Made by a program: the position numbers and the translations under genes
The notes under the pieces: generated by a model
The model's input: only the letters and a program-made list of their open reading frames with translations
Told to the model about the DNA's origin: nothing
Database searches by the model: none
Shown here: positions 34,235 through 53,925 of the stretch, piece by piece
Position numbering within the stretch: position 1 is the stretch's first letter
Layout of the letters: the number at the start of each line of letters is the position of its first letter
Assembly (NCBI RefSeq): GCF_008016535.1
Contig: NZ_SAXY01000058.1
Span: forward strand, 1 to 64,000
Direction: 5' to 3'
DNA length: 64,000 nt
Source: Brachyspira pilosicoli
GTDB taxonomy: Bacteria; Spirochaetota; Brachyspiria; Brachyspirales; Brachyspiraceae

Positions 34235-34262
34235 TTGACAAAAATTATTTATTTGCTATCAT
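34235..34262 (+). promoter_or_regulatory. Promoter of the pentamer-repeat leader
   Basis: TTGACA (34235-34240), 16-nt spacer, TATCAT (34257-34262). The first ATG (34269) is 6 nt past the -10 box, again implying a leaderless mRNA. Confidence 0.55.
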
Positions 34263-34268
34263 ATACTA

Positions 34269-34391
34269 ATGATGAACTATATGAACTATATATTTAACAT
34301 CACGCATCGCATCGCATCGCATCGCATCGCATCGCATCGCATCGCATCGCATCGCATCGCATCGCATCGCATCGCATCGCATCGCATATAA
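34269..34391 (+). CDS. Leaderless upstream ORF through the pentamer array (currently stops after the array)
   Basis: Opens MMNYMNYIFNIT, then repeats of HRIAS coded by the 5-bp units, and stops at TAA 34389-34391. With one unit more (or two fewer) the frame would leave the array as AYKLNSVSINTLSYLNK and run 58 codons without a stop to TAA 34561-34563, overlapping the start of the lipoprotein gene at 34557. The third frame stops at once. No ribosome-binding site. Translation is inferred from the pattern shared with the cassettes at 2574 and 53961. Confidence 0.4.
   Translation: MMNYMNYIFNITHRIASHRIASHRIASHRIASHRIASHRI
34303..34387 (+). repeat. Pentanucleotide tandem array (CGCAT), 17 copies
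   Basis: Seventeen perfect CGCAT units, 85 bp. GC-rich compared with its flanks. Perfect identity of all units suggests active slippage. The unit is not a multiple of three. Confidence 0.98.
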
Positions 34392-34556
34392 ACTAAATTC
34401 TGTTTCTATTAATACATTATCATATTTAAATAAAATATCGGCAATATTCTCATTGCATTTGTTTTTATCAATTTTTGGCGGCAATAAACATTGTCAGTTA
34501 ATCATTCATAATAGCATCATAAAAACATTATTAATATCATCATTAAGGAGATTTCT

Positions 34557-34949
34557 ATGTTAAATAATTTGAATAAAAAAATTATTAAAATTGTTGTCAG
34601 CATTTTTTTGTTAGCTTTAATTTCAATAAGCTGTGAATCGAAACAAGATCCTACAAAACAAGATCCTATTACTTTCAGACCTATGGATTTAGTTGGCACA
34701 TGGTATAGTACAGATGGAAAAGCTGATAGTTTTACTATAACATACGAAGGCTATATGACTTTAAATGATGGGTCTCAATCTAAAACCATTCCAATAGAAA
34801 ACTGGAGATATACTATGAGTAATGAAGTTACTTCCTATGAGCTGTTTTCGGGTATAGTACGTTTTTATTTCAAAAGTTCTAGTGAATGTGAGGTGATTAT
34901 TAGTACTGCAAGCGGAGAATCACGAGGGTATTTCAGAAAAGCAGTATAA
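34557..34949 (+). CDS. Small lipoprotein, lipocalin-like pattern
   Basis: 130 residues with a signal ending at the lipobox LISISC, a short linker, then a beta-rich domain beginning MDLVGTWYSTDGKADSFTI and repeating short strand-turn units to RGYFRKAV. The GTW opening and strand pattern are like small calycin-type lipoproteins, common in Brachyspira, but no function is known. Strong AAGGAG site. Preceded by the pentamer-repeat leader, so its expression may be switched. Confidence 0.8.
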   Translation: MLNNLNKKIIKIVVSIFLLALISISCESKQDPTKQDPITFRPMDLVGTWYSTDGKADSFTITYEGYMTLNDGSQSKTIPIENWRYTMSNEVTSYELFSGIVRFYFKSSSECEVIISTASGESRGYFRKAV

Positions 34950-53833: not shown

Positions 53834-53925
53834 GACTACTGTAGACTGTAGACTGTAGACTGTAGACTGTAGACTGTAGACTGTAGACTGTCTACAATGA
53901 TTTGTATCAAAATATCAGTTTTCAT
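53809..53925 (-). CDS. Leaderless upstream ORF through the heptamer array (currently out of frame with the barrel gene)
   Basis: Opens MKTDILIQIIVD, then SLQSTVY repeats, then SWKITLYN and stop (53811-53809). The ATG is 7 nt after the -10 box, no ribosome-binding site. The distance to the barrel frame is 92 nt, which is two more than a multiple of three; adding one 7-nt unit, or removing two, joins the frames. Opening residues and frame match the ORF at 2609. Confidence 0.4.
53840..53893 (-). repeat. Heptanucleotide tandem array (TGTAGAC on the plus strand), 7 copies plus partial
   Basis: Seven perfect units from 53840 to 53888 plus a partial unit. Reverse complement of the array at 2641-2707, including both end palindromes (CTACTGTAG and TAGACTGTCTA on the plus strand). 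Confidence 0.97.

Follow-up and report, generated by a model that had tools for sequence, protein, structure and literature searches.

A 64,000-nt stretch of the Brachyspira pilosicoli genome (hereafter the window) contains a perfect array of the pentamer CGCAT between a predicted promoter and the gene of a small lipoprotein. The features of this locus are the following; stops, motifs and reading frames were taken from the sequence.

34235–34262, + strand: predicted promoter TTGACA-16-TATCAT with an extended -10 TG (11/12 match to the consensus, the best in the region)
34269–34271, + strand: ATG of the leader open reading frame (ORF), of the leaderless type, at the predicted +1 (sequence and consensus placement)
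34303–34387, + strand: (CGCAT)17 array, stop-free in all three sense frames (17.0 perfect units, 100% match in TRF)
34388–34563, + strand: leader stretch read only in the ON frame, to TAA 34561–34563 (sequence and genus-wide statistics)
34389–34391, + strand: TAA, OFF stop of the present frame (17 copies)
34394–34396, + strand: TAA, OFF stop of the frame of 16 or 19 copies
34452–34457, + strand: ATTGCA, matching the core of a leader element, CTTTTGGTATTGCAWAA
34545–34550, + strand: AAGGAG, Shine-Dalgarno (SD) sequence of the lipoprotein gene
34557–34949, + strand: gene of a small lipoprotein of 130 aa, whose signal peptide has a lipobox-like ISC

The consensus match of the promoter predicts a transcription start at about 34268–34269, and this spacing makes the ATG at 34269 a plausible leaderless start codon. 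Further in-frame ATGs are found in the leader at 34272 and 34281. The initial annotation had counted 17 copies of the pentamer, and TRF analysis returned the same number. It had also described two closed frames and one open frame, which we confirmed: the present and the second frame end right after the array, and the third is open from the array to the TAA at 34561–34563, which overlaps the lipoprotein ATG at 34557. Since each unit shifts the frame by 5 nt, ATG 34269 connects to the open frame when the number of copies is a multiple of three (15, 18 or 21) and misses it with 16 or 17. Frame arithmetic thus bore out the proposal that 17 copies are OFF and 15 or 18 are ON.

The lipoprotein gene has its own SD and ATG and is out of frame with the ON leader, which sets this locus apart from classical in-frame phase variation. 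No Pfam or NCBIfam match was obtained for the protein. Relatives are encoded in 20 other genomes of the genus, and no array was found within 1.5 kb at the 15 of these loci that were checked. The (CGCAT)17 array itself cannot be due to chance. Dinucleotide shuffles of the window leader yielded an open frame in 17.5% of cases and the full pattern in 3.3%, so that the frame geometry is weak evidence at this single locus; it is the comparison across the genus that makes it very strong.

Two other switches are located in the window:

2574–2932, + strand: second switch, with a promoter at 2574–2601, a leaderless-type ATG at 2609 and an (ACAGTCT)9.7 array at 2640–2707
53838–53925, - strand: third switch, with a leaderless-type ATG at 53925–53923 and an (ACAGTCT)7.7 array at 53891–53838

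Their arrays, (ACAGTCT)9.7 at 2640 and (ACTGTAG)7.7 at 53838, are one unit on opposite strands. The gene of the second switch starts at 2907, and the ON frame stays open beyond this point, to 2932. At the third switch, the ON frame continues uninterrupted into the coding sequence of a secreted or outer-membrane-like protein for which no separate start is obvious, and this locus appears to be a case of classical in-frame phase variation built on the same promoter and array plan. By their present copy numbers, the array at 2640 is in the ON phase and those at 34303 and 53838 are OFF. An ORF resembling the beginning of a transposase lies from about 54072 onward (+ strand), directly upstream of the third switch and divergent from it.

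The genome containing the window is 2.76 Mb long. In a 368-kb sample of it, made up of the window and stretches of four other contigs, only nine arrays were present, formed by four units (CGCAT, ACAGTCT, CTCACAG and ACAGC), and eight of the nine follow the leader plan. The CTCACAG unit was found at two paralogous lipoprotein loci (L180, 1302–1372, 10.1 copies; L184, 6245–6273, 4.1 copies), with near-identical flanks and the leader plan at both. The ACAGC array (L177, 14747–14796, minus strand, 10 copies) lies behind an SD and an ATG. Its leader is longer, with all frames closing early, and fits the plan less clearly; it is possibly a decayed or different arrangement.

Across the genus, CGCAT arrays of at least five units were detected in 17 of 26 genomes, with no hit of the control pattern in any genome, and the ACAGTCT unit in 11 of 26. 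We examined thirty CGCAT and twenty ACAGTCT arrays. The leader layout, built on at least three different repeat units, is thus repeated at about fifty loci across Brachyspira, which suggests a general random ON/OFF switch for surface and other genes. A TTGAC(A/T)-16/17-TATAAT-like promoter precedes the array at nearly all loci, with the predicted start about 30–45 nt before the array, and the leader is 75–259 nt long at every locus. At the ACAGTCT loci and a subset of the CGCAT loci, an ATG lies 4–11 nt after the -10 box, i.e., at the predicted +1; the remaining CGCAT loci have an SD-preceded ATG 2–21 nt before the array. No array unit contains a stop in any sense frame. Reading of the arrays on the reverse strand was rejected because antisense ACAGTCT carries a stop (TAG) and the plan of promoter and gene lies on the sense strand. 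CGCAT is not a genus-specific repeat, as arrays of it are also found in unrelated bacteria, and a phage origin was discarded after a search of IMG/VR gave one match to the heptamer, in an unrelated setting, and none to the pentamer. Several arrays are located at contig ends (L104, L107, L149, L164, L088, L091 and L135), so that assemblies from short reads are broken by the switches and give too low a count of them.

Frame statistics were computed on the 42 array loci with a defined, SD-preceded gene start. One frame was open to within 40 nt of the gene at 40 loci, compared with 7.8±2.1 in shuffled sequences (maximum 13 in 200 rounds), and both other frames met a stop no more than 20 nt after the array at 35 loci (16.8±3.1 in shuffles). 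The two features were combined at 33 loci, for 1.8±1.2 in shuffles and a maximum of 5. Many of the loci are interrelated, yet the pattern holds on independent leader families: with one representative for each of 24 families, an open frame was found in 22 (null 5.7±1.8) and both features in 17 (null 1.5±1.1). These families come from strict clustering; single-linkage clustering was discarded, as it chained AT-rich sequences. The upstream regions of 50 ordinary genes from the window's own genome had both features at a rate of 0.08. An open frame alone was found in them at a rate of 0.42, to which the automatic choice of internal starts probably contributed; as this control set is often open by itself, only the combined rate was used from it. 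The ON frame stops between -33 and +56 relative to the gene start at 35 of the 42 loci, with a cluster at -33 to +26 and six exact ATGA overlaps; of the other ON frames, one stops at +101, four are fused in frame to the gene and two end short of it. In the two exceptions, the CGCAT loci L114 and L115, the open frame ends 76 and 141 nt early. Fusion of the ON frame to the gene frame was seen at L102, L118, L127, L136, L132 and the window locus at 53838, which are nearer to classical phase variation. Its recurrence throughout the genus supports selection on the geometry of the leader.

The leaders are poor in G. Forty of the 42 contain more C than G, whereas among the 50 controls this holds for 19 (p=3e-9); the bias could reflect avoidance of start codons and structure rather than Rho. 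Predicted overall pairing is slightly lower than in controls. No intrinsic terminator was found between array and gene near the window locus, and among 48 leaders only L134 has a short hairpin followed by T. The genes have strong SDs (AAGGAG, AGGAG), whose predicted accessibility does not differ from that at control genes (unpaired 0.42 vs 0.39, p=0.33), on which ground occlusion of the ribosome binding site (RBS) in the OFF state was rejected. A rho gene scoring above the TIGR00767 cut-off was identified in all 26 genomes. Bare RNA of 75–259 nt is about the span that Rho needs, or more. The OFF-state RNA is predicted to be long, untranslated, weakly structured and richer in C than in G.

The explanation that best accounts for these sequences, and probably the correct one, is a phase-variable, translation-gated leader whose OFF state would be imposed mostly by Rho. 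Transcription would begin at about 34269 and translation at the ATG that opens the RNA. Ribosomes would then read the array, where the number of CGCAT copies, altered by slippage, would set the frame. In two of the three frames they would stop directly behind the array, at the stops seen in the sequence, so that about 160 nt of weakly structured RNA with more C than G would stay free of ribosomes before the gene. On this untranslated leader, Rho would most likely terminate the transcript before the gene is reached. In the third frame, ribosomes could continue along the open frame to the start codon of the gene, and their traffic would both exclude Rho and deliver ribosomes at that codon. The leader peptide itself probably has no job, and the CGCAT, ACAGTCT and CTCACAG units would run the same device on many genes of the genus. 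A strong, open RBS should be used whenever mRNA reaches it, so the OFF state is most easily imposed on the transcript. The G-depleted leaders with C above G point to Rho-dependent loss of untranslated OFF transcripts. Gating of the gene by the frame of translation is very probable. Given such gating, we lean slightly towards Rho-dependent loss as the main OFF step; coupling or re-initiation would be a possible but lesser candidate for that step, and something else, e.g., decay, has a small chance of filling it.

Translational coupling, the mechanism favored by the initial annotation, is the main rival and may act alongside Rho. In its proper form, transcription would be equal in both phases and the gene would be translated only by ribosomes that finish the leader and then re-initiate or unfold the start. 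The ends of the ON frames, so often close to the gene start or overlapping it, agree with this reading. In the window leader, when free of ribosomes, the lipoprotein start codon has a predicted unpaired probability of 0.10, versus a mean of 0.43 at the array loci, so there is scope for coupling at this locus. The stop and start codons overlap or adjoin as in coupled gene pairs; unlike in such pairs, the upstream ORF is switched by a repeat and lacks a protein signature, and the downstream RBS is strong. Across loci, the gene start is neither weak nor hidden, and coupling does not need a G-poor leader of 75–259 nt with paired early stops. Of the original proposal, the placement of the array in a leader ORF whose third frame ends on the gene start and the assignment of ON and OFF copy numbers are supported. 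Rho-dependent polarity in the untranslated leader is at least as likely as coupling in the strict sense, given the strong accessible SDs, the leaders poor in G with more C than G, and the presence of rho in every genome. We consider coupling on its own rather unlikely and retain the translation-gated leader with Rho.

A second alternative is that the ON frame encodes a functional small protein, i.e., that the locus is an ordinary operon with a phase-variable first gene. Some leader families do keep recognizable peptides, such as NLFQSLEILKYINAISFGIAKN in L106, L119 and L121, and pN/pS among these three is 0.23–0.8. Against this, pN/pS pooled over related leaders is 0.75, G occupies codon position 1 at 6.6% in the leaders versus 27.8% in the genes behind them, with no codon-position bias, and the leader peptides showed no relation between loci. 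The ON register relative to the array also differs between the related loci L100 and L101, where openness is kept. A conserved leader peptide was excluded by the missing codon-position bias and the pooled pN/pS, and a small-protein function is very unlikely. As the leaders have no coding signature, the act of translation, rather than the peptide, seems to matter: the leader must probably be open, and what it encodes appears to matter little.

In other bacteria, transcription is known to be tuned by slippery repeats that lie before or within 5' UTRs, and the arrays could in principle act likewise as DNA or untranslated RNA (a spacer, a protein-binding site or an mRNA stability element), with the open frame being incidental. 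This is less credible still, since the frame pattern is far above chance in the 24 leader families, a start codon precedes the array at nearly every locus, and the array lies downstream of the predicted +1. Non-functional microsatellite drift upstream of genes can practically be set aside: slipped-strand expansion needs no function and CGCAT arrays also occur in unrelated bacteria, but only a few units recur in this AT-rich genome (four units in the nine arrays of the 368-kb sample, eight of them with the leader plan), with constant orientation, promoter spacing and open frame.

A short element with the core TTGCA was found in 32 of 48 leaders, behind all three repeat units. Its consensus is CTTTTGGTATTGCA(A/T)AA; its distance from the array is about 40–105 nt, and its register relative to the ON frame is not the same in all leaders. 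Carriers include L105, L119, L121, L128, L093, L131 and the window leader at 34452–34457, and in a subset of leaders the element forms the end of an AATGCC-N9-GGCATT hairpin. Taking the translation-gated reading to the whole genus, we tentatively propose an architecture in which a few fixed units would sit in mini-ORFs with leaderless or SD-led starts and determine at random whether the leader is shielded from Rho by ribosomes, so that dozens of unrelated genes would be switched independently at the level of transcription-translation coupling, with the shared element CTTTTGGTATTGCAWAA as an added part.

The genes behind the arrays encode lipoproteins from several families, among them a Bor-like one, as well as glycosyltransferase 61, an MBOAT acyltransferase, a methyl-accepting chemotaxis protein, LRR_5, TM2, radical SAM and methyltransferase proteins, and a protein with a weak OMP_b-brl match. 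The related leaders L105, L106, L119 and L121 precede at least three different genes, which indicates that leaders and genes can be recombined. About 12 of the 45 loci with an assignable start read ON, near the one third expected of random phase. Copy numbers were compared between species, with one genome per species. Related loci differed in number and phase: L084 has 5.7 units (ON) and L085 10.7 (OFF), the window array at 2640 has 9.7 (ON) and L133 8.7 (OFF), and L094 has 11.1 (ON) and L086 15.1 (OFF). These differences between species lend indirect support to the suggestion that the perfect CGCAT units reflect active slippage.

The finding is real and larger than first noted, extending to a genus-wide, probably phase-variable leader architecture. 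In the literature searched, which was limited to open-access sources, we found no description of phase variation in Brachyspira. This genus includes gut pathogens of pigs, poultry and people. From sequence alone, the plan predicts the set of lipoproteins, glycosyltransferases, outer-membrane proteins and chemoreceptors that switch, and the phase in which each genome was caught. The dozens of replicate leaders also form a natural set for testing what length of ribosome travel suffices to shield a nascent transcript; outside model bacteria, this aspect of transcription-translation coupling is still an open question.

In classical contingency genes, e.g., of Haemophilus and Neisseria, out-of-frame changes in repeats give ON and OFF states. 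The Brachyspira switches would work through the same kind of change, but at most loci the repeat is outside the frame of the regulated protein; a few loci, such as the window array at 53838–53891, fit the classical type. In the flagellar switch of Clostridioides difficile, the OFF state is imposed by Rho in the 5' leader (PMC7446863). Phase variation through Rho in a leader, demonstrated in C. difficile and inferred here, would be common to both, whereas C. difficile uses DNA inversion in place of repeat slippage and reading frame.

The closest known system is that of the pil1 and pil3 operons of Streptococcus gallolyticus, in which the extent of leader translation depends on GCAGA repeats and decides whether an intrinsic terminator is disrupted (Danne et al. 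2014, PMC3894217). In both systems, a pentamer array lies between promoter and gene within a short ORF that has a start codon of its own, and the point at which leader translation stops depends on the copy number modulo 3, the longer version being ON (in Brachyspira by the logic of the sequence at 42 loci). In S. gallolyticus, the terminator is an intrinsic stem-loop and only pilus operons have been reported. In Brachyspira, leaderless starts are frequent, and the plan is shared by dozens of loci with several repeat units in one genus. Unlike in pil1, the Brachyspira ON frame reaches the start codon of the gene and the other two frames close at once. As no intrinsic terminator was found in the Brachyspira leaders, we did not class them as members of the pil1 type. 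On several Lachnospiraceae contigs (L137, L139, L140, L158 and L168), a CGCAT array lies just after a conserved TTGACA..ATGC(G/A)GAAA start and is followed by an apparent intrinsic terminator and then, in most cases, by a protein bearing a signal peptide; judging from this layout, these loci are apparently attenuation switches of the S. gallolyticus type.
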